IMG/VR virus record: IMGVR_UViG_3300042868_008267
Coordinates: 1-33,196 of that record
Source of the DNA: a virus
Strand: one strand, 5' to 3'
DNA length: 33,196 nt
Part shown: in pieces, positions 1 to 33,196 of the stretch
Layout: each line of letters begins with the position of its first letter
Position numbering within the stretch: position 1 is the first letter of the stretch
Notes under the pieces: model-generated
What the model was told of the DNA's origin: nothing
The model's database searches: none
What the model saw: the letters and a program-made list of their open reading frames with translations, nothing else
Translations under genes and position numbers: made by a program

Positions 1-93
1 GGCGCGACCCCGGAAAAAAGTGATGGAAAAACGCAGTTTTCTAGCGGGGAAAGGGTATTCCTGCCAAGCTGCCAAAACTAAATGATTTTTTAA
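1..93 (+). other. Left end: cos-side leader before terminase
   Basis: The leading GGCGCGACC repeats the right end of the window and is similar to the lambda left cohesive end. The region continues with an A-run (15-19), a short ATG frame at 23-85 (MEKRSFLAGKGYSCQAAKTK, no clear Shine-Dalgarno) and a T-rich stretch just before ATG 94. Terminase binding sites (cosB/cosQ equivalents) are expected near here, but no repeated R-site-like sequence could be pinned down by eye. Confidence 0.5.
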
Positions 94-4628: not shown

Positions 4629-6080
4629 ATGCGTAATCTCTCAAACGATATCCGGGCCAATCGCCCCGTCCTTATCCAACCGACCATTGCCAAGGCATTC
4701 CTTGAGCGATGCGCCGACATTAAGCTCCCCCTGGGGGCCAAGGCGTCCGATATGTCGGATATGCTGGCCGCGATCTTTGGCGCTAAATCGGCGCTCGAAA
4801 AATTCCCGCCCTTTGCGATTGTCCCCATTAAGGGGGTTATCGGTCGTAACCTTTCCGACCTGGAGGCTGCTTGCGGCGCTTGCGATCTGGAGGCCGTGGA
4901 GGAAATGCTGGAGGACGCGGAACGGGACCCCTCGATTACGACCATTATCCTGGACGTCGATTCCCCCGGCGGGTCCGCGGTCGGCGTGCCGGAGCTTGCC
5001 AAACGGGTCCGCGAATGCGGTAAGCGCACGGTTTCCTTTACCTCCGGCGATTGCTGCTCGGCGGCCTATTGGATTGCTTCCCAGGCGTCGGAATTCTACG
5101 CAACCCCCTCGTCCACCGTGGCAAACGTCGGTTGTTATATCGTGTTTAACGATATGTCGGCGGCCTATGCCCAGGAGGGCGTCGCGGTTGACGTTATCCG
5201 ATCCGGCAATCTGAAGGGCGCAGGAACGCCGGGGACCTCCCTGTCCAAGGAGCAGCGGGACGATCTCTTGGCCGGTGTCCTGGAGATTGCCGATAACTTT
5301 AAGGCCGACGTTAAGCTCGTCCGCGAATTCGTCCAGGACGCGGATATGGCGGGCCAATGCTTCTCCGGGACCAAGGCCGCCGAAAAGGGTTTCGTTACCG
5401 CCCTAACCAATGGTTTCGACGAGCTTATGCAAAGCCTGGACGCCGAGGTCGCGGCGCAGATCGAGGCCGACGAGGCAAACGACGCCCGCGCCAATGTCGG
5501 CGGCGAGGCCGAGGAATCCGACGAGGACGAGGGTATGGGCCGTATGGCTGCCGCCCGCGCCCTTAAGGGTATCCCTGGCGGTATCCGCGCCCTTATGGCA
5601 AAGGCCGAGAAATCCCCGGACGAGGAGGAAAAGGACGGTTCCGAACCGATGCCCAAGAAGGGAAAGAAGTACGGTAAGGCCAATTCCGACGAGGAGGACG
5701 ACGAGGACGAAACCCCGTCCGATCCCATTACCGACGACGACGAGGAAAAGGATAAGCCGGAATCCCAGGACGACGAGGAAAAGCCCGAATCCGAGGAGGA
5801 TAAGGACGAACCCAAGGCCGAGGACGAGGAGGAGGACGCCGATCAGCAGCCCGAATCCGAGGACGAGGAAAAGGAACCCAAGGCCGAGGATAAGGACGAG
5901 GAAAAGCCCGAATCCGAGGACGAGGACGATAAGGAACCCAAGGCCGAGGACCAGGATAAGGACGACGCCGACGCCAAGGAAAAGGCCGAGGAGGAATCCG
6001 ATACCGGGGATAAGGCCGTCGAAACCGACGAGGAGCCGGAAAAGAAGGGCGTTCGCAACCGATCCCGCGGCCTCGCTTGA
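4629..6080 (+). CDS. Prohead protease (S49/SppA family) with acidic tail
   Basis: Head maturation protease of the lambda gpC type. The SppA/ClpP fold covers residues about 60-275. It shows DVDSPGGSAVGVPELAKRV (about 109-127), the likely nucleophile Ser144 in CCSAAYWIAS and the likely catalytic Lys196 in GNLKGAGTPG. From about residue 330 to 475 the chain becomes extremely acidic and repetitive (cycles of KPESED and EPKAED), unlike most S49 prohead proteases. In lambda the C-terminal part of gpC overlaps the Nu3 scaffold; here the acidic tail may play a comparable scaffold or capsid-binding role (inference). The TGA stop lies inside repeat copy 2. Confidence 0.9.
   Translation: MRNLSNDIRANRPVLIQPTIAKAFLERCADIKLPLGAKASDMSDMLAAIFGAKSALEKFPPFAIVPIKGVIGRNLSDLEAACGACDLEAVEEMLEDAERDPSITTIILDVDSPGGSAVGVPELAKRVRECGKRTVSFTSGDCCSAAYWIASQASEFYATPSSTVANVGCYIVFNDMSAAYAQEGVAVDVIRSGNLKGAGTPGTSLSKEQRDDLLAGVLEIADNFKADVKLVREFVQDADMAGQCFSGTKAAEKGFVTALTNGFDELMQSLDAEVAAQIEADEANDARANVGGEAEESDEDEGMGRMAAARALKGIPGGIRALMAKAEKSPDEEEKDGSEPMPKKGKKYGKANSDEEDDEDETPSDPITDDDEEKDKPESQDDEEKPESEEDKDEPKAEDEEEDADQQPESEDEEKEPKAEDKDEEKPESEDEDDKEPKAEDQDKDDADAKEKAEEESDTGDKAVETDEEPEKKGVRNRSRGLA
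5680..6050 (+). repeat. Acidic low-complexity coding repeat
   Basis: GA-rich imperfect tandem repeats inside the protease gene encode Asp/Glu/Lys/Pro/Ser tracts. Units such as CCCGAATCCGAGGA and CCCAAGGCCGAGGA recur with small changes. All three forward frames, and much of the minus strand, stay open through the repeat as a composition effect, so long overlapping ORFs here are not evidence of extra genes. The region is prone to slippage and length variation. Confidence 0.8.
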
Positions 6081-20115: not shown

Positions 20116-20157
20116 CGCAGGGGGTTGATTTTCATTTCGCCCGCTGCGTCGGTTTTT
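20116..20157 (+). terminator. Candidate terminator before the first methyltransferase
   Basis: CGCAG (20116-20120) pairs with CTGCG (20144-20148); after a G-G mismatch three G-C pairs extend the stem inwards. The 3' side runs into TCGG and then TTTTT (20153-20157). An ACCGA at 20100-20104 can extend the stem with TCGGT (20149-20153) across a bulge. The loop is long, so this is moderate evidence only. Confidence 0.4.
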
Positions 20158-20178
20158 CTAAATCATTCCCCTATCCCT

Positions 20179-21813
20179 ATGCGTTATGTATCCGTATGCT
20201 CCGGAATGGAGGCCGCAACCGTCGCTTGGCATCCACTAGGCTGGACCCCGCTGGCCTTTTCCGAGATCGAACCTTTCCCCAAAGCCCTCCTCCAATACAA
20301 ATACCCAAGTATCCCTAACTATGGCGACCTTACCAAATTCGACGAATGGCCCTTACCAGTTGGAAATGTGGACCTCGTCGTCGGGGGAACCCCCTGCCAA
20401 GCTTGGTCCGTTGCGGGCAAGCGATTGGGCCTCGACGATCCTCGCGGCCGCGTCGCTCTCGCATATGCTGGCCTTATTGAAAAGCACCGACCCCGATGGA
20501 TTGTATGGGAAAACGTGCCAGGCGTCTATTCAGCAGGAAAGCCCGGAGGCGCAGATTTCGCCGCCTTTGTCGGGGCGTTGGCTAAACTCGGGTATCATAT
20601 CGCCTACCGAACGCTTAACGCTGAATACTTCGGAGTCCCGCAGCGACGCCGCCGATGCATACTTGTCGGATATCTTGGAGATTGGCGACCTGCCGCGGCG
20701 GTACTTTTTGAGCCCGAAAGCTTGTGCAGGGATATTGAGAAGGGCCGAAAGGCGAGGAAAGGAATTGCCTCCGGCCCTCAAGGCGGCGCTGGTCCAAGCG
20801 ACCCAAGAGGTTGCTGGTGGGACGGTGGACAGATCAGCCAAACCCTAGACGCAGTCCTTTCCAAGGGCCAAACGATGCCCGAAAAAAACCGTTTCCCTGC
20901 GGTCCTCCAACCCGTATGCGCCACCGGCGAAACGACCCATTGCCTTACCTCGTCCCATCGCGGGTCGGAGGACGGGACGGGGCGAGGAACCCCTATCGAT
21001 ATAGATCGGGCGGCATTTAACCAGGGGGTTAACGCCCAATATACCCCGCATATCGCCGAATCCGAGACGATGGATACCCTCGTTTCCAAGGGTCCCCACG
21101 CGGTTGGGGTTCCGTTCCGCAAAGCTAAACGGGCCTCCACCGATCAGGACGACGAGACTTGGGTCGAGGCCGATACGGCCAATACCCTAAACCTTTTCGA
21201 CCTCGGCGATACGCGGACGACGCACGCAATCGTCGAACCTCGCATTTACGAGAATCATCCTAACGATTCGCGGGTTACAGGTCCGCACGACGTTGCGCCA
21301 ACGGTAACCTCCAGGTATGGGACCGGGGGCGGTAACGTCCCTCTCGTTAATAACGAGGCCGTGCAGCCAATCGCATTCCAACCTGGCAACCTTATGCGTC
21401 GGGCGGGTTCCGATCCCTCGACCGAGGTTTTCCCGACGGTCAAATGCGATACGGGCGACCAATCCCCGCACGTTGCTATGCCTATGGCGTTCGACGCCTA
21501 TAACCAAACGATTTCCGATACGGCGGGGACAATCAATGCGGCCCGGACCGGCGTCCAACACGTCGGCGGCGTCCTTACGCCTATGGCCGTCCGTCGTCTA
21601 ACGCCGGAGGAATGCGAGGCGTTGCAAGGGTTCCCCAAGGGGTATTCTCGTATCCCTTGGAAAGGTAAACCCGCCGACCAATGCCCCGACGGCCCGCGGT
21701 ACAAAGCTTGCGGTAACTCAATGGCGGTTCCCGTTATGGCCTGGGTAGGCCAGCGCATCGCCCTCGTCGATAAACTCATTTCCCAATCCCAACCCGAACA
21801 ACCCAAACCCTAA
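20179..21813 (+). CDS. DNA C5-cytosine methyltransferase (Dcm-type), full length
   Basis: A 544-residue S-adenosylmethionine-dependent methyltransferase that would modify cytosine at C5. Motif I VCSGMEAATVAW is at the N-terminus, the catalytic loop GGTPCQAWS has Cys73, ENV is at 111-113, and FGVPQRRRRC at 151-160. A long target-recognition region follows (about residues 165-470), including CATGETTHCLTSS and DGTGRGTP, typical of phage enzymes. The C-terminal motifs are RRLTPEECEALQGFP and GNSMAVPVMAWVG. ATG 20179 is chosen because motif I begins immediately; the longer 562-residue version adds residues before the fold. It probably protects phage DNA from restriction. Confidence 0.9.
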   Translation: MRYVSVCSGMEAATVAWHPLGWTPLAFSEIEPFPKALLQYKYPSIPNYGDLTKFDEWPLPVGNVDLVVGGTPCQAWSVAGKRLGLDDPRGRVALAYAGLIEKHRPRWIVWENVPGVYSAGKPGGADFAAFVGALAKLGYHIAYRTLNAEYFGVPQRRRRCILVGYLGDWRPAAAVLFEPESLCRDIEKGRKARKGIASGPQGGAGPSDPRGCWWDGGQISQTLDAVLSKGQTMPEKNRFPAVLQPVCATGETTHCLTSSHRGSEDGTGRGTPIDIDRAAFNQGVNAQYTPHIAESETMDTLVSKGPHAVGVPFRKAKRASTDQDDETWVEADTANTLNLFDLGDTRTTHAIVEPRIYENHPNDSRVTGPHDVAPTVTSRYGTGGGNVPLVNNEAVQPIAFQPGNLMRRAGSDPSTEVFPTVKCDTGDQSPHVAMPMAFDAYNQTISDTAGTINAARTGVQHVGGVLTPMAVRRLTPEECEALQGFPKGYSRIPWKGKPADQCPDGPRYKACGNSMAVPVMAWVGQRIALVDKLISQSQPEQPKP

Positions 21814-23599: not shown

Positions 23600-23898
23600 T
23601 CGACGACGAACCCGACAGTTACCTCGACCAGCTTTACCAGCAAAACGAGATTTTAGAAATGGAAATCCAAATCCAATGCGACGAAAAGGAGAAGCTTCTC
23701 CAGGAAATCGAGCGCCTTAAATCCGCGGCGAAACATCGCATTAAGGAGCTGCGGGCCGTTAAGGCAGCCGGTCGCCGTATGTACGATTTTATCGAGGAGG
23801 GTATTAACGCCGATCTTTTCCACGACGAGGTCCTCGACGCCGCCAACCTGGCCCAAGAAAAATGGTACGATATCGATACCAACCGTTTTAAAAAATGA
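23596..23898 (+). CDS. Coiled-coil hypothetical protein (100 aa)
   Basis: A 100-residue protein that is one long charged coiled coil (residues about 8-55, DQLYQQNEILEMEIQIQCDE then KEKLLQEIERLKSAAKHRIK), followed by a helical region with FIEEGINADLFHDEVLDAAN. The ATGA overlaps on both sides (23596-23599 and 23895-23898) put it firmly in an operon with the resolvase and the second methyltransferase. Likely a dimeric accessory or regulatory protein; function unknown. Confidence 0.55.
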   Translation: MIDDEPDSYLDQLYQQNEILEMEIQIQCDEKEKLLQEIERLKSAAKHRIKELRAVKAAGRRMYDFIEEGINADLFHDEVLDAANLAQEKWYDIDTNRFKK

Positions 23899-24572
23899 AC
23901 GTCCTCGACCTATTCGCCGGACTGGAGGGTTGGTCCACGCCTTTCCGGGAACGCGGACACCGCGTATTTTCTACCGATTTCGACCCCCAGTTTAAGGTCG
24001 ATCTCGTTAAGGATATCCTGGAGGTTACCCCCGACGATATTCCCTTTCGGCCCGATATCATCCTGGCGTCCCCGCCTTGCGAGGCGTTTTCCGTAATGAA
24101 TATCGGGAAAAACTGGACCGGCCCCGACGCCGACCCGCCCCATCAACCCAAGACAGATCGGGCCAAGCTCGGCCTCCAAATATTGGAACGGACCATTTGG
24201 TTGGTCCAATGGCTGCGCCCGTCGTACTTCATTATCGAAAACCCGCGGGCGAAAATGCGGAAAATGCCCATAATGCAACAGTTTGAACGCCGGACGGTAA
24301 CCTATTGCCAGTATGGTATGCGCTGGCAAAAACCGACCGATCTATGGGGCGGGTTCCCTCCCTCCCTGGTCCTCCGGGATATGTGCCAACGCGGCGCCCC
24401 CTGCCACGAGGCAGCCCCCCGCGGTTCCTCGACGGGTATCCAGGGTAAGCATAGCGCCGAGCAGCGGGCCGTCGTCCCTCACCAGCTTTCCGAGCAAATC
24501 TGCATTGCCGCCGAGGCCGACCTGGCCGCCGGTCGTCCTTACCGCCCCATTTACCTTTTCCCTACCGAATGA
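23895..24572 (+). CDS. Compact cytosine-specific methyltransferase
   Basis: A 225-residue C5-methyltransferase-like protein. Motif I is VLDLFAGLEGWS, SAM-binding FSTDFDPQF follows, the catalytic loop is ASPPCEAFSV (Cys62) and ENPR replaces the more usual ENV (115-118). After about residue 130 the chain has PTDLWGGF and a Cys/His segment (MCQRGAPCHEAAPRGS). It lacks the large recognition domain and the GNSxA end of the enzyme at 20179, so it is not a duplicate. Short phage enzymes of this kind exist, but their specificity is often unknown; it could modify a different site or act on another base position. Confidence 0.8.
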   Translation: MNVLDLFAGLEGWSTPFRERGHRVFSTDFDPQFKVDLVKDILEVTPDDIPFRPDIILASPPCEAFSVMNIGKNWTGPDADPPHQPKTDRAKLGLQILERTIWLVQWLRPSYFIIENPRAKMRKMPIMQQFERRTVTYCQYGMRWQKPTDLWGGFPPSLVLRDMCQRGAPCHEAAPRGSSTGIQGKHSAEQRAVVPHQLSEQICIAAEADLAAGRPYRPIYLFPTE

Positions 24573-25180
24573 AATCCAAACCTATGCCCACCGATCCCAA
24601 CCCTCCCCCCGCGTCGAGCGCCGCAACCTCCCTGGTTAACGCCCTCGCCGATCTCGAAAACGTCGCCGCCAATAAGACGGTTAAGGCAAATTTCGTCGCC
24701 CGCTACGTTTCCCTCGACGTCCTTTTGGACGCAATCAAACCAATCCTCCACCGGCACGGGTTCGCCTTGCGCCAAGTCCTGGTATCCGAGGAGGGCCGCG
24801 TCGGGGTCCATACCTCTTTCCTCCATACCTCCGGGGAGGCGTTCGACGCCGGTAAGCTTATGTTTAAGGCCGACGGCCTTACCCCGCAGCAGATCGGTAG
24901 CGGGCTAACTTATGTGCGTCGCCAAAGTATTAGCACGGCGTGCCTTATCAGTACGGACCAGGACGACGATGGGGCCTCCGCGTCGAAACCGGCCAAGCCC
25001 GCCGCCCCGCCCGCCCCCTGGTATTCTTTCCTTACCGCGGTCGAGGCCGAACGGGCGCACGCCTACCTCGTCGCCAAGAAATGGCTGCCGGAATCCGCGG
25101 ACGATCTCGCCGAGCTAGCAAAGGATAAGATCGATATGATTCTGGCGAATAAGGACCAATTCCTTAAGGCAATCAAATGA
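24569..25180 (+). CDS. ERF-family single-strand annealing protein
   Basis: A 203-residue recombinase that would anneal complementary single strands during phage recombination. The ERF pattern is clear: AIKPILHRHGFALRQVLVSE, a HTSGEAFDAG segment, GLTPQQIGSGLTYVRRQSIS and the acidic TDQDDDGASASKP. After a Pro/Ala linker (about residues 138-152) comes a small C-terminal helical domain. ATG 24569 gives an ATGA overlap with the methyltransferase gene, but ATG 24584 (TATG context) is an equally plausible start. It would work with the exonuclease at 27073. Confidence 0.8.
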   Translation: MKSKPMPTDPNPPPASSAATSLVNALADLENVAANKTVKANFVARYVSLDVLLDAIKPILHRHGFALRQVLVSEEGRVGVHTSFLHTSGEAFDAGKLMFKADGLTPQQIGSGLTYVRRQSISTACLISTDQDDDGASASKPAKPAAPPAPWYSFLTAVEAERAHAYLVAKKWLPESADDLAELAKDKIDMILANKDQFLKAIK

Positions 25181-27025: not shown

Positions 27026-27044
27026 TATTGTCCTACCTATTGTC
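27026..27044 (+). promoter_or_regulatory. Direct repeat upstream of exonuclease gene
   Basis: TATTGTC occurs twice with 12-base spacing (27026-27032 and 27038-27044) in the only gap over 50 bases in the recombination region, about 30 bases before ATG 27073. It may be a promoter or regulator site. Evidence is weak. Confidence 0.25.
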
Positions 27045-27072
27045 GGCCCCTCTTTTTCCTAACCTAATACCT

Positions 27073-27882
27073 ATGCCAAAAATCCAAACCCGCCAGGATT
27101 ACGACGCCGTTCCGGCCCTTAATTACAGTCTAGCGAAACAGCTATTAATTTCGCCTTTGCACGCCCGCCAATACCTCGACGCCCCCCGCGAGGAAACCAA
27201 GGCCCTCCGGATCGGTTCCGCAATCCATAGCGCCGCCTTGGAACCCGAAACCTTTTCCAATAAGTACGTTTGCGGTATCGACGTGGATAAGAGGACCAAG
27301 GCCGGCAAAGAGGCATACGAGGCGTTTATCGCTGCCGCCGGTGATAAGGTCGTCCTTACGCCCGACGAATTCGGCCTGGTCGCCAACGTCGCCCTTGCCG
27401 CCAATAAGGCGCTCCAAAAGATCGGCGTTACGTTCGTCGAAACCGAAACGATGTATACCGTCGATTATTGCGGCGTCCCCCTTAAATCCGCAATCGACGC
27501 GGTCGGGTCGGACGATTATCTATACGATCTCAAAAGCTGCGAATCCGCGGCCCCGACGTTTACCGGTGCTTTGGGGGCGATTAAATCGTATAAATATAAC
27601 CTCCAGGCCCATTTTTACCGGACCGTTTACGAGCTGGCGACCGGCAAACGCCCTAGGGGTTTCCGGTTTCTGTTTATCGAGAAGGAGGCCCCCTGGGCGA
27701 CGGCCATATACGAGGTCGGCCCTAACCTTATGTCTTACGCGGTCGCCGATTTTGAGAAGGCCGTTAAGCTTTACGAGGCCGGTATCGCTTTCGATTCCTG
27801 GCCCGGTTACCCGTCCGATCCCCAGGTTATCGATATCGGCCCCGAAACGACCAAGGCCGCAACCCCTATTAATTTCGCCTAA
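27073..27882 (+). CDS. RecE-like PD-(D/E)XK exonuclease
   Basis: A 269-residue 5'-3' exonuclease that would generate single strands for the ERF annealase. It shows RIGSAIHSAALEP (His52), the catalytic core SAIDAVG...YLYDLKS (Asp142, then Asp152 and Lys154) and QAHFYRTVYELATG (Gln178 motif), the order expected for RecE/lambda-exonuclease-type nucleases (VRR/YqaJ-like). An N-terminal Tyr-Ser-Leu segment (LNYSLAKQLLISPLHARQY) matches the usual start of this family. ATG 27073 is chosen for its CTATG context; 27028 would add 15 residues. Confidence 0.82.
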   Translation: MPKIQTRQDYDAVPALNYSLAKQLLISPLHARQYLDAPREETKALRIGSAIHSAALEPETFSNKYVCGIDVDKRTKAGKEAYEAFIAAAGDKVVLTPDEFGLVANVALAANKALQKIGVTFVETETMYTVDYCGVPLKSAIDAVGSDDYLYDLKSCESAAPTFTGALGAIKSYKYNLQAHFYRTVYELATGKRPRGFRFLFIEKEAPWATAIYEVGPNLMSYAVADFEKAVKLYEAGIAFDSWPGYPSDPQVIDIGPETTKAATPINFA

Positions 27883-29268: not shown

Positions 29269-30061
29269 ATCTCAAATCGTCCGGTTTGTCGCTGCCGGGG
29301 ACGTCCACGGCGATATGGCCGACCCGGAGGCCCTGGAGGCCCTTTACGCCTATTGCGCCGAATACCTCGGCCCTAACGATCTGCGGATTTGCCTAGGCGA
29401 CGCATTCGATTTCCGATCCCTGCGCCGAGGCGTCGGAGCTGCGGACGCCGAATCCGCAGAATCCCTTAAGGCCGATATCGAGGCCGGTATGGATTTCCTG
29501 CGCCGGTTCCTGCGTCCTGGGTCGGTTTACCTTTGGGGTAACCACGAACACCGGCTCGACCATATGATCGCAACCTCCGGGTCGGCAATCTACCGCGATT
29601 ATTGCCAGGACATTAAGGACGCAATTAACGCAACGGCCCGGAAAGCTGGCGCTAGGGTAATCCTCCCTTACCACGCGGAAAAAGGGGTTTACCGCCTCGG
29701 ACCTATCGCAATGGTACACGGGTACGCCCACGGCGTACAAGCTGTCCACGACCAAGCGAAACATTACAGCGACCGCGGAGGCGCTTTGATCTGCGGCCAT
29801 ATCCACCGTTTGGAGCAAATTAATACCCAACGCCACGGCGGCGGGGCCGGGTTTTCGGCTGGCTGCCTATGCATAAAGGAGGCGATGGGATATGCGTCGG
29901 GGCGCTTGGGGACAAGCCGGTGGGGTACGGGATTTTCGGCCGGTTGGGTCGATCTTAAGACGAATCAATGGAAAGTATGGTTAGTCCACCGTATCTCGTC
30001 GAACCCCTCGAAATGGATTTGGCAAACCGATCTCAAAACCTGGACCCCGCGTAAGAAATGA
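29261..30061 (+). CDS. Calcineurin-like metallophosphoesterase
   Basis: A 266-residue two-metal phosphoesterase with the full motif set: GDVHGD (Asp14, His16), CLGDAFD (Asp47), WGNHEHR (Asn94, His95), VHGYAHG and CGHIHR. Such phage enzymes act on nucleotides, cyclic nucleotides or nucleic acid ends; the substrate cannot be read from the sequence. A link to countering nucleotide-signal defences is possible but unproven. ATG 29261 is chosen because motif I starts within 14 residues; it overlaps the previous gene by eight bases and the next by four. Confidence 0.85.
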   Translation: MPKSQIVRFVAAGDVHGDMADPEALEALYAYCAEYLGPNDLRICLGDAFDFRSLRRGVGAADAESAESLKADIEAGMDFLRRFLRPGSVYLWGNHEHRLDHMIATSGSAIYRDYCQDIKDAINATARKAGARVILPYHAEKGVYRLGPIAMVHGYAHGVQAVHDQAKHYSDRGGALICGHIHRLEQINTQRHGGGAGFSAGCLCIKEAMGYASGRLGTSRWGTGFSAGWVDLKTNQWKVWLVHRISSNPSKWIWQTDLKTWTPRKK

Positions 30062-30558
30062 GCCGGTTAACCAAGGCAATCGACGCCATAACCAACGCCG
30101 TCCTTAAGCCCGACGGCCAGAAAGCTATGCCGGTCCCAAAGGGTTGGCTAACAATCCAGGAAATGCAAAGGCATTACGGCCACCGTTGGCGGCATACCAC
30201 CAGCTACCGCGCCTCATCTATGGCCCGCCGTGGCCTTTTAGATCGTAAGCTTATCCTCCGGCAAAGCGCCGCAATGCATTACCGGGAATATATCTACCGC
30301 GTCCTCCCCCCGTGCAAATCCCTCGCCGACGCCGATCTTAAATACCTGGCGGTCGGCCAGGATAAGGTCCCCAAGGGTTGGGCGACCGCAAAGCAGCTGG
30401 CCGAAAGGTTTAAAATCTCGCAGCAAGCAATCTGGCAAATGGCCCAACGCCACGCCGTACCCTCCCGATTCTACCGAACCCAACGCGGCCTTTCCGGCGT
30501 CGTCTCGACGAGACATTTTCAAATTGGCCCAATGCTGCGCCTACACGATAAGCGATAA
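30058..30558 (+). CDS. Protein with two tandem HTH-like modules
   Basis: A 166-residue basic protein in which two similar modules start with PKGWLTIQEMQRHYGHRW (residues about 27-44) and PKGWATAKQLAERFKISQQA (about 105-124). The second is a clear helix-turn-helix (RFKISQQAIWQMAQRHAVPS). A middle segment is aromatic and basic (YREYIYRVLPP). Two DNA-binding modules just before the helicase suggest an origin-binding or replication-initiator role (inference). Coupled to the phosphoesterase by ATGA. Confidence 0.6.
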   Translation: MSRLTKAIDAITNAVLKPDGQKAMPVPKGWLTIQEMQRHYGHRWRHTTSYRASSMARRGLLDRKLILRQSAAMHYREYIYRVLPPCKSLADADLKYLAVGQDKVPKGWATAKQLAERFKISQQAIWQMAQRHAVPSRFYRTQRGLSGVVSTRHFQIGPMLRLHDKR

Positions 30559-30562
30559 CCAA

Positions 30563-30580
30563 GGCCGCCGCCCGACGGCC
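30563..30580 (+). promoter_or_regulatory. Small hairpin before helicase gene
   Basis: GGCCG (30563-30567) and CGGCC (30576-30580) can pair across eight bases in the 38-base gap before ATG 30597. No T-run follows, so termination is unlikely. It could affect translation of the helicase gene. Confidence 0.25.
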
Positions 30581-30596
30581 TCCAATCAATAAACCT

Positions 30597-31922
30597 ATGC
30601 ACAAACTTACCGCCTCGACCGATGCGGAACGGTTCCTAATCGGTTCCGTACTCCGCGACGGCCTACCATTCCCCAAGGACCTAATCCCATCGGATTTCGT
30701 CGAACCAAAGCACCAGGAAATCGTCGCCAGTATTCTCTCCCTTGAGGGCGAATCGATCACCGCGGACGAGCTAACGGTATCTATGCGCCTCCGGGATATG
30801 AAGGCGACAACCGAGGCCCATTACGTCTCGGATACGACGTCCTGCGTCGGCGCTACCCCCTTTAATCCCGCCTGGGCCGACGAGGTCCGACGCCTCTCGG
30901 TCCTCCGGCATATCCGTACGACCGCGACAAAGGCCGCCGAGATTGCCGCCGACCCTGCCGCCGACCCCCAGGCAATCCTCGCCTTTACCGAGGGCCAGTT
31001 TAAAGCAGCCAACCGCCAGGACGCGGCCAAATCGCCGTCGGTCGCAATGGGCCTCGACGATCTCCTCGCATTCGACCGCAAAAACGACCCCAATTCCGTA
31101 ATCGGTAACCGTTGGTTATGTAAAGGCGGGTCCCTCCTCCTCGTATCCCAGTCCGGCGTCGGTAAATCCAGTTTCTCCCTCCAGTTTATGGTAACCCTAG
31201 CGACCAAGCGCCTAGGCGGGTTTTTCGGGATCGAGGCCAAACGCCCTTTAAGGGTCGTTTTTTGTCAAAACGAGAATGATTTTGGGGACGTTGGGGAGGC
31301 CCTCCAGGACATAACCGACGGCCTTATGCTCCATCCTCCCGAAATGGAGGCCCTCCGCGAGAATCTACATATTTACCGCCTTAAGGGGGCGACCGGCCAG
31401 GATTTCCTCGACGAAATGCGCCGCCTCATAAAGCTCCACGCCGCCGACGTATTCGTTTGCGACCCTCTTATGGCATTTGCCGCAATAAATGTGACAGATC
31501 AACAAGAGGTAACCAATTTCTTCCGAAACGGTATCGACGCCGTCCTTTCCGAATCCGGGGCCGTCCTCGTCGCCGTCCATCATACGACCAAACCCAGGTC
31601 GTCCAAGGATACGGCGGGCCAAACCTCCGCGGACCTGGCATATAGCGGGGGAGGCCATAGCGAAATAACCAATTATATGCGGGAGGTCGCCGTACTTACC
31701 CGCTGCCAGGGGGACGACCCGATATTTAAGTTTTCCCTAACCAAGCGCCGAGGCCGATCTGGAATGAAGGACGACGCGGGCTTTTTCGCCGGGGATATCT
31801 ACGTCCGACATTGCCCGACCCGCGGCGTTATCCGTTGGGAACGGTCAACCCCTCCCGACGATCCCAACGCCAAGGGCGATTCCCGCCCCGCCAAGGGGTC
31901 GCCACGGGCTTTCGAGAGGTAA
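30597..31922 (+). CDS. Replicative helicase: DnaB N-domain plus RepA-type ATPase
   Basis: A 441-residue helicase. The N-terminus (residues about 5-105, DAERFLIGSVLRDGLPFPKD, FVEPKHQEIVASILSL) matches the DnaB N-terminal domain. After a linker comes a RecA-like motor with Walker A VSQSGVGKSSF (184-193) and Walker B ADVFVCDPLMAF (Asp289), then AVHHTTKPRS (His328/329) and SADLAYSGGGHSEI, the signature of RepA/AAA_25-type hexameric helicases. It should unwind the phage origin with host primase and polymerase. The C-terminus is disordered and basic. The non-coding gap that follows carries origin-like repeats. Confidence 0.85.
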   Translation: MHKLTASTDAERFLIGSVLRDGLPFPKDLIPSDFVEPKHQEIVASILSLEGESITADELTVSMRLRDMKATTEAHYVSDTTSCVGATPFNPAWADEVRRLSVLRHIRTTATKAAEIAADPAADPQAILAFTEGQFKAANRQDAAKSPSVAMGLDDLLAFDRKNDPNSVIGNRWLCKGGSLLLVSQSGVGKSSFSLQFMVTLATKRLGGFFGIEAKRPLRVVFCQNENDFGDVGEALQDITDGLMLHPPEMEALRENLHIYRLKGATGQDFLDEMRRLIKLHAADVFVCDPLMAFAAINVTDQQEVTNFFRNGIDAVLSESGAVLVAVHHTTKPRSSKDTAGQTSADLAYSGGGHSEITNYMREVAVLTRCQGDDPIFKFSLTKRRGRSGMKDDAGFFAGDIYVRHCPTRGVIRWERSTPPDDPNAKGDSRPAKGSPRAFER

Positions 31923-31969
31923 TCCCTACCCTCGCCCCCATAACCCTCCCAAGCGCCCTTTTCCCGTGC

Positions 31970-32003
31970 GGTATATTTCCAGGCATATTTCCGTAATATC
32001 CCC
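31970..32003 (+). repeat. Tandem iteron-like repeats
   Basis: GGTATATTTCC (31970-31980) and GGCATATTTCC (31982-31992) are near-identical with 12-base spacing; a third degenerate unit GTAATATCCCC (31993-32003, seven of eleven matches to the consensus) follows directly. Tandem AT-containing 11-mers next to a helicase gene suggest initiator binding sites, though operator use is possible. Confidence 0.55.
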
Positions 32004-32015
32004 TAAAGGGGATAT
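31996..32015. promoter_or_regulatory. Perfect 8-bp palindrome
   Basis: ATATCCCC (31996-32003) is the exact reverse complement of GGGGATAT (32008-32015) with a TAAA spacer. A related half, AAAGGGGTATAT, recurs at 32441-32452 before the last gene, so this may be an operator as well as part of an origin. Confidence 0.55.
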
Positions 32016-32055
32016 GCAATCTTCCCCCCTCCCTAGGGGGTCGGGGGTCGATTGC
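32016..32055. promoter_or_regulatory. Nested stem-loop downstream of helicase
   Basis: GCAATC (32016-32021) pairs with GATTGC (32050-32055), and inside it CCCCC (32024-32028) pairs with GGGGG (32043-32047), with the palindrome CCCTAGGG (32031-32038) at the centre. This makes a 40-base hairpin with a 2-by-2 mismatch. No T-run follows. It could be an origin structure, a regulatory RNA hairpin or a strong pause site. Confidence 0.5.
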
Positions 32056-32087
32056 CTCACACCCCCCATTTACCGGGTCGAACCCTA

Positions 32088-32441
32088 ATGGGAAAACAAT
32101 TCCGACCGCGTAAGCTTAACGTCGCCCAGGTCCGGCGTATGCGTACCCTAATCCGCTGGAAACAGCTATGGGACGAACAACCCGACCGAATGGAGCAAAT
32201 CCGCAAGGCCGCGACCAAGATCGCCGCCGATAAGCGCCACCGGCGAAACCTGGCCCTTAAGGATATCCTCTCCAGCTGGCCCAAAACCCTATCCCCCGAC
32301 GAATTCCGGCAGCAGATCGATATCCTTGCGCCCAACCTTAACCCCAAATCGGTCGTTAACCGCGTCCGACGCCTGGGATACCTTACGTTCGACCCGGCGC
32401 AATTAGCGTGGATAAATCATACCCGCCAAGCTGTTGATTAA
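32088..32441 (+). CDS. Basic helical protein, possible regulator (117 aa)
   Basis: A 117-residue very basic protein (RPRKLNVAQVRRMRTLIRWK, KAATKIAADKRHRRNLALKD) with a C-terminal part NPKSVVNRVRRLGYLTFDPA that could be an HTH (SVVNRVRRLGYL). Its position right after the repeat-rich gap suggests it may bind there. ATG 32088 is preferred over an in-frame TTG at 32052, which falls inside the stem-loop. No family recognised. Confidence 0.55.
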   Translation: MGKQFRPRKLNVAQVRRMRTLIRWKQLWDEQPDRMEQIRKAATKIAADKRHRRNLALKDILSSWPKTLSPDEFRQQIDILAPNLNPKSVVNRVRRLGYLTFDPAQLAWINHTRQAVD

Positions 32442-32468
32442 AAGGGGTATATAGGGATTATAACCCTA
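32434..32468 (+). promoter_or_regulatory. AT-rich promoter-like region before last gene
   Basis: TTGATT (32434-32439) is followed by AAAAGGGGTATATAGGG and then TTATAA (32458-32463), an approximate sigma-70 arrangement with an 18-base spacer. TAGGG (32452-32456) and CCCTA (32464-32468) form a palindrome around it. The half-site AAAGGGG-TATAT also occurs at 32005-32015. Candidate regulated promoter for the gene at 32470. Confidence 0.35.
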
Positions 32469-32469
32469 C

Positions 32470-33165
32470 TTGACCAAATCGCCGTCCATTCCGGCCCAAT
32501 ATGCCTCTTGGTGGAGATCACTAACGGCCCAGGATAGGCGTCTATTAATCGCTAAAAAGCTATTCGACCCGTCCGACCTATCCGGCGACAAGCGCCAAGA
32601 TCGGTCCCGCGTTAACGACGGGCATTTCGATTTCAGCAGATCGGAGGAGCAAAATACCTATAACCGTCCAGGTCGCCAGGGTAACCTAACGACCATATCC
32701 ACGTCCGCGGCCGAGGATGTATGCCAGTCCGAGGAGGTAACCCTGGCCTCCCTCGACCCGCGTATCGAGCAGCTGGACCTTGCCTCCTTCCGGTTGCGGG
32801 CAATGCTGGAGTTTCTCCTGGACGGGTTGGACGCCTCGACCGATCCCGCAATGCGCCTAAAGGCCGACGTTATCCGTATCGTCGTCGGGGAGGGCCGCCC
32901 TCCTCGTATGTCGGAGCTGGCAAAGGTCCACAGCCTTACCCGGTCCGCGGTATCGCTCCAATGTCGCAAGCTTTTGCGCCGTATGGGGCTGCCTCCCTCG
33001 CGGTATATGCGTCCGGAGGATGAGGTAACGACGATGCGGGTTGCGTACCTGGTGCGCCAGGCGGCCTCCGATCATATGGATGGGGGTAAGGTTGAGAAAA
33101 ACGGCAAAAAAGGGCGTTTTTCTGCGGTACGGACCCCCCATACCCCCGGTAAGGAATCTATTTAA
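32470..33165 (+). CDS. Sigma-like / HTH transcription regulator
   Basis: A 231-residue protein with a C-terminal helix-turn-helix (residues about 147-171, MSELAKVHSLTRSAVSLQCR KLLRRMG) resembling sigma factor region 4 or related regulators. It is preceded by a helical region LASFRLRAMLEFLLDGLDAS (about 104-123). The N-terminal 90 residues are polar and probably disordered. The start is TTG at 32470; no ATG lies near. As the last gene before cos and the terminase, this is where late-gene activators are often encoded, so it is a candidate for driving the head/tail operon, perhaps through the 15-mer repeats (hypothesis). Confidence 0.6.
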   Translation: MTKSPSIPAQYASWWRSLTAQDRRLLIAKKLFDPSDLSGDKRQDRSRVNDGHFDFSRSEEQNTYNRPGRQGNLTTISTSAAEDVCQSEEVTLASLDPRIEQLDLASFRLRAMLEFLLDGLDASTDPAMRLKADVIRIVVGEGRPPRMSELAKVHSLTRSAVSLQCRKLLRRMGLPPSRYMRPEDEVTTMRVAYLVRQAASDHMDGGKVEKNGKKGRFSAVRTPHTPGKESI

Positions 33166-33196
33166 ATGACTGGAAATGACGCCACGCGGGCGCGAC
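33166..33196 (+). other. Right end: partial short ORF and cos-side sequence
   Basis: An ATG at 33166 immediately follows the previous TAA. If the right end is joined to the left end with the shared eight bases counted once, this frame continues through the junction to a TGA at 83-85, giving a 35-residue basic peptide ending in FLAGKGYSCQAAKTK. Within the window only 31 bases are visible. The last bases, GCGGGCGCGAC, are cos-like. Confidence 0.35.
33189..33196 (+). repeat. Terminal direct repeat GGCGCGAC (right copy)
   Basis: The last eight bases are identical to bases 1-8. Together they suggest a cohesive-end overlap or the join of a circular sequence. The lambda cohesive end begins GGGCGGCGACC, and the joined sequence here reads GGGCGCGACCCCGG. 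Confidence 0.6.

Follow-up and report, generated by a model that had tools for sequence, protein, structure and literature searches.

Tandem repeats and two adjacent hairpins between a DnaB-like helicase gene and a small winged-helix gene: a probable replication origin of a tailed phage

The locus considered here lies near the right end of the window, as the whole stretch of DNA analysed is called (33,196 nucleotides; positions 1 to 33,196 of IMG/VR virus record IMGVR_UViG_3300042868_008267), and comprises a non-coding gap of 165 bp (31923–32087) that extends from the stop of a helicase gene at 31922 to the ATG of a small gene at 32088, in agreement with the initial annotation, which had placed a structured block directly after the helicase gene. 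The first of these genes (30597–31922, + strand) encodes a DnaB-like replicative helicase, recognized in Pfam and PHROGs by a DnaB N-terminal domain and AAA_25 and in the PDB profile search by a match to the DnaB N-terminal domain; the protein had no match in a plasmid collection, and its only matches in a phage collection were three records of Wolbachia WO, with 28% along 39% of its length. The second (32088–32441, + strand) encodes a basic protein of 117 aa with a predicted C-terminal winged helix, the iteron-binding initiator proposed below. An alternative initiator candidate is the 166-aa product of 30058–30558 (+ strand), with weak MarR_2/HTH matches below the cut-off; by profile, an ORF of its family lies just upstream of only 103 of 257 helicases, and it is less favoured as the common initiator. 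The same early region encodes an ERF recombinase (24569–25180) and a DUF3799 PDDEXK protein (27028–27882), near which two C5-cytosine DNA methyltransferase-like genes are found (20125–21813 and 23895–24572), and a Pfam scan of 26 window proteins detected no primase family.

Some other features of the window are recorded here as separate observations. Beyond the small gene, a protein with an HTH-like C-terminal region, as judged by eye, is encoded at 32470–33165 and adjoins the genome end; among the 90 loci with enough sequence, the small gene is followed by an ORF of this family in 89, and the protein may act as a late regulator or have a part in packaging. GGCGCGAC stands at both ends of the window (1–8 and 33189–33196) and looks like a cohesive packaging end, so that the window possibly represents a complete genome. 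In several other contigs (L001, L004, L013) the sequence also stops, at the equivalent position, with a GCGAC or GTGAC motif, in a count of 10 sequences, some of them from the same contig, while L010 reads across the GCGAC site. The 15-mer TTGACTCCCGCGTTG occurs five times on the + strand (2737, 6077, 7620, 9315 and 14116), on or close to the borders between genes of the structural module, and is shared by two further related contigs (L002/L017/L099 and L009/L101), possibly as a late promoter or another control element. The protein encoded at 4629–6080 ends in a long acidic repeat tract of Asp, Glu and Lys (5695–5988).

Within the gap, two tandem iteron-like 11-mers are found on the + strand at 31970–31992, GGTATATTTCC (31970–31980) and GGCATATTTCC (31982–31992), with a start-to-start pitch of 12 bp and an AT content of 61%, compared with 42% for the window. 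A third copy on the same strand, GTAATATCCCC (31993–32003), read by eye, is weak and degenerate (7/11 identity to GGCATATTTCC) and overlaps the left arm of the palindrome that follows, so that the "two to three" tandem copies first described are a reasonable count. Hairpin 1 (31996–32015) is the perfect palindrome ATATCCCC-TAAA-GGGGATAT, which may be read as 8+4+8 or as 9+2+9, and corresponds to the 8+8 palindrome of the annotation. Hairpin 2 (32016–32055), the nested 40-base stem-loop also described there, runs from GCAATC to GATTGC and has stems of 6, 5 and 3 bp separated by two 2×2 pyrimidine internal loops, with CCCTAGGG at its tip (32031–32038).

Taken by itself, the window gives a modest signal. 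The palindrome has the greatest length among its perfect small-loop hairpins, but other perfect hairpins with arms of 8 are present, and the 60-base core formed by both hairpins (31996–32055) folds with a z-score of −4.73, a value matched by none of 200 shuffles; the last 150 nt of the gap reach only −1.47, and the site is not among the top 15 z-scores of a window-wide folding scan in 64-nt windows. Fixed-pitch tandem direct repeats are present, though weak in this phage alone, with a lag-12 score of only 8, which 8 of 100 gap shuffles also reached. The density of repeats had been regarded as unique in the window, a view that the window itself confirms only in part. GGYATATTTCC with up to two mismatches occurs 25 times in the window against 22.2 expected, indicating no enrichment and leaving the idea of a wider regulatory hub without support, and the suggested skew analysis, on both GC skew and third-position skew, gave no clear origin signal. 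It is the comparison with relatives that lifts the element above chance.

The relatives were collected mainly with a helicase profile against IMG/VR (at least 579 confirmed of at least 600 matched stretches, 80 kept) and with two subfamily helicase profiles (306 of 325 confirmed, and at least 567 of at least 599 confirmed, 80 kept from each), the three sets overlapping one another, to which a first scan (15 loci), a palindrome scan (10 stretches) and bacterial genome contigs (40 loci) were added. In total 292 sequences were examined, including the window, and their 276 gaps were reduced to 98 non-redundant ones, 45 of which have a small ORF directly after. A recurring order is found in these relatives, namely tandem direct repeats of about 12 bp, hairpin 1, and a hairpin 2 that is long and contains internal loops. 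A period of 12 gives the best repeat in 27 of the 45 non-redundant relatives versus 110 of 822 windows drawn as controls from other parts of these loci, and lag-12 scores of at least 10 are found in 25 of the 45 versus 7 of the 822. The letters of the repeats vary by subfamily, as in GGAGAATGCTTC, AAATCCTTAGTG, ACTCAAGGTCCG and AACTCAACTTCC, and 16 of the 45 relatives have no lag-12 or lag-13 repeat at a score of at least 8, one of them, L010, carrying a 23-bp repeat instead. The iteron arrays are more AT-rich than their own locus in 28 of 29 cases, and no separate AT-rich unwinding tract was clearly identified. Lack of conservation in relatives had been named beforehand as a refuting condition; conservation was found in the layout and not in the letters, and the reading first proposed was not refuted by this comparison.

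The exact 20-mer palindrome is present in 10 IMG/VR contigs, all with a DnaB-like helicase gene nearby, of which eight belong to this helicase family and two (L096 and L102) fall outside it by profiles. In L102 (1841–1927) the palindrome lies inside an ORF just upstream of the DnaB helicase gene and is preceded by three 15-mer repeats, and in L096 (1663–1682) the gene downstream of it has primase- and DnaB-like matches. More distant helicase relatives (28–45% identity) occur in MAGs of Verrucomicrobia, Planctomycetes and others, where no small ORF is detected by profile; in many of these a GC hairpin, with both direct and inverted repeats about it, comes immediately after the helicase stop. 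In the MAG-borne relatives L118, L120, L121, L126, L130, L131, L134 and L137 the ~10–15-mers, both direct and inverted, form arrays flanking a GC hairpin after the helicase stop, apparently a two-sided version of the element. The host of the phage is probably a Verrucomicrobiota bacterium, as judged only from these weak MAG helicase relatives.

The hairpins also recur beyond the controls, folding z-scores of −3 or lower being obtained for the 150 nt that immediately precede the small ORF in 20 of 45 relatives versus 2 of 125 control windows, and for 29 of the 49 viral and bacterial gaps that no small ORF follows directly. Of the 460 cells of the two-hairpin structure in the L059 subfamily (23 rows, 20 distinct), 98.7% pair, and both sides have changed in 6 of the 23 pairs. 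Sliding the partners by 1–3 columns left no double-change pairs in any of the six controls, and only 3 of 500 shuffles reached six double-change pairs and none of 500 reached the covariation score. The window's own clade (six rows) is too uniform for covariation, its score being reached by 87 of 500 shuffles.

As regards the protein encoded next to the element, its AlphaFold2 model (pLDDT 87.5) consists of two long helices followed by a C-terminal helix-helix-strand-strand, a predicted winged-helix arrangement that speaks for the fold and not for the function. Its structural neighbours are winged-helix domains of many functions and are generic (best Z 6.8, MCM8), and the searches were largely negative: Foldseek of the model against the PDB gave no match at E ≤ 0.001, the PDB profile search gave nothing credible (best E 0.02, calmodulin), none of the 54 family members matched Pfam at better than E 0.001, and PHROGs yielded only two weak families, of three members and one member (best E 0.0021). 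The family has an ORF after 209 of the 255 helicases for which 500 nt or more of downstream sequence are available; of the other 46, 36 belong to the bacterial genome contigs and 10 to viral contigs. In eight viral loci, 733–1489 nt with apparent genes separate the helicase from the small gene (L269, with a gap of 257 nt, was not counted among them), and the element is found just before the small gene. The 110 nt 5′ of the small ORF outfold three post-helicase stretches in seven of the eight, with the exception of L024 (−1.6 vs −1.8), and L045 keeps a repeat close to that of the window, GGTATAATTCC, twice at a pitch of 12 bp. The element stays with the small gene in these displaced loci and is therefore tied to the winged-helix gene, a linkage that supports this protein as the ligand and that equally suits an operator or a leader.

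The architecture and its recurrence, the covariation in one subfamily, the helicase neighbour, the linkage to the winged-helix gene and the predicted fold together point to the block at 31966–32060 as probably the replication origin of this tailed phage. Between the two options of the annotation, an origin with iterons and a melting region or an operator cluster, they favour the origin, which may double as the operator of the winged-helix gene; if it is an origin, both functions are likely to go together. That the element is an autoregulatory operator or control region and not an origin, the winged-helix protein binding both the repeats and the palindrome, appears rather unlikely, although its place immediately 5′ of that gene, retained even where the gene has been split from the helicase, speaks for this explanation. 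No sigma-70-like promoter was found at the site in a promoter scan, though other kinds of promoters exist; the distant relatives, in which such a gene was not detected, have the repeats and the hairpin after the helicase; and a repeat array together with two covarying hairpins exceeds what a simple operator needs. A structured RNA leader or terminator, acting in the transcript of the helicase and the small gene, would account for the stable folding of the 60-base core and for the pairing conserved in the L059 subfamily, but it is improbable in the light of several results. No match in the window was obtained with the covariance models of Rfam 15 at the gathering score, no intrinsic terminator (a GC stem followed by a T run) was found at 31923–32087 in a scan of 29900–33196, and tandem repeats at a fixed pitch of 12 bp are a pattern of DNA binding. 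A functional RNA should favour G.T over A.C mismatches on the sense strand, whereas the 65 hairpins of 45 sequences contain 955 Watson–Crick pairs, 13 G.T and 18 A.C mismatches, the stems of 36 distant sequences contain 31 G.T and 26 A.C, and wobble cells in the covarying L059 subfamily are only 2 of 460; given that the sequences share ancestry, this lack of an RNA bias is to be taken only as a hint. On the + strand C.T mismatches (32) exceed A.G (12), and therefore the minus strand carries mainly G.A mismatches, while loops such as CTTCG, CTAAAG and CTTACG read as CGAAG, CTTTAG and CGTAAG on the minus strand; in DNA, GNA loops are stable, as are tandem G.A mismatches.

Palindromes and direct repeats also occur at recombination and packaging sites, but such a role is highly improbable here, considering that a packaging end is better placed at the GCGAC-like motif that lies some 1.1 kb further right, where several contigs end, and that the Pfam scan of 26 window proteins revealed no integrase. 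A chance cluster of repeats, which the modest signal of the window alone might suggest, is just as improbable, because the layout recurs in relatives well beyond the controls and both members of stem pairs have changed together.

If the block is an origin, initiation may proceed as follows. The 117-aa winged-helix protein would bind the tandem ~12-bp repeats, and this binding would bend and open the locally AT-rich repeats, allowing hairpins 1 and 2 to extrude or to form on the single strand so exposed. At the opened site the DnaB-like helicase of the phage itself would load, the host primase and polymerase would then take over, and hairpin 2 could serve as a priming or strand-orienting site. 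As happens in iteron plasmids, the element would probably also exert feedback on winged-helix gene expression.

Iteron origins and hairpin origins are already known; in phage lambda the O protein is an initiator that binds direct repeats, and in SaPIs the origin lies 3′ of rep. The nearest models for the present element are RSF1010 and pRN1. The oriV of RSF1010 (IncQ) is described as combining RepC iterons, the RepA helicase, and the ssiA and ssiB hairpins with the RepB′ primase (PMC4234260, PMC4434180), and the phage element resembles it in its iterons, its dedicated replicative helicase and its hairpins, which adjoin the iterons as in RSF1010-type oriV. It differs in that the phage helicase has a DnaB N-terminal domain, that the two phage hairpins lie side by side, and that no RepB′-like primase emerged from the Pfam scan of 26 window proteins, because of which the element is not assigned to the RSF1010 type; the small winged-helix protein has no established sequence link to RepC. 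In the crenarchaeal plasmid pRN1, a stem-loop 3′ of the replication gene is needed for replication and is conserved in structure and not in sequence (PMC4234260), which parallels the position and the manner of conservation observed here, although pRN1 has no iterons. The origins of the lactococcal phages TP901-1 and Tuc2009 contain direct repeats bound by the phage initiator (PMC8965321). The repeats of lambdoid and lactococcal origins lie inside the initiator gene, whereas here they are intergenic and followed by two hairpins. The PLE phage satellite has a RepA initiator with cognate iterons (PMC7145576), and the phage would resemble PLE and SaPIs in pairing a mobile-element initiator with its iterons; the PLE initiator is of the RepA_N type, and a comparable hairpin pair does not figure in the part of its description consulted (PMC7145576). 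A search of the open-access literature found no title or abstract start describing the element.

It is possible, and we propose it tentatively, that the element represents a new class of phage origin, in which a small winged-helix initiator family outside Pfam and PHROGs would act with subfamily-specific ~12-bp iterons and a covarying hairpin pair, the latter working as minus-strand single-stranded DNA (with G.A mismatches as internal loops and loops that are often GNA or GNNA) for helicase loading or priming in a large group of uncultured phages. If the interpretation as an origin is true, it would provide a recognizable origin signature and an initiator candidate for perhaps several hundred uncultured phage contigs, the diverged pairs of iterons and proteins would constitute a natural set for the co-evolution of initiators and origins, and the system would offer a test of whether the hairpins of phage origins work as DNA.
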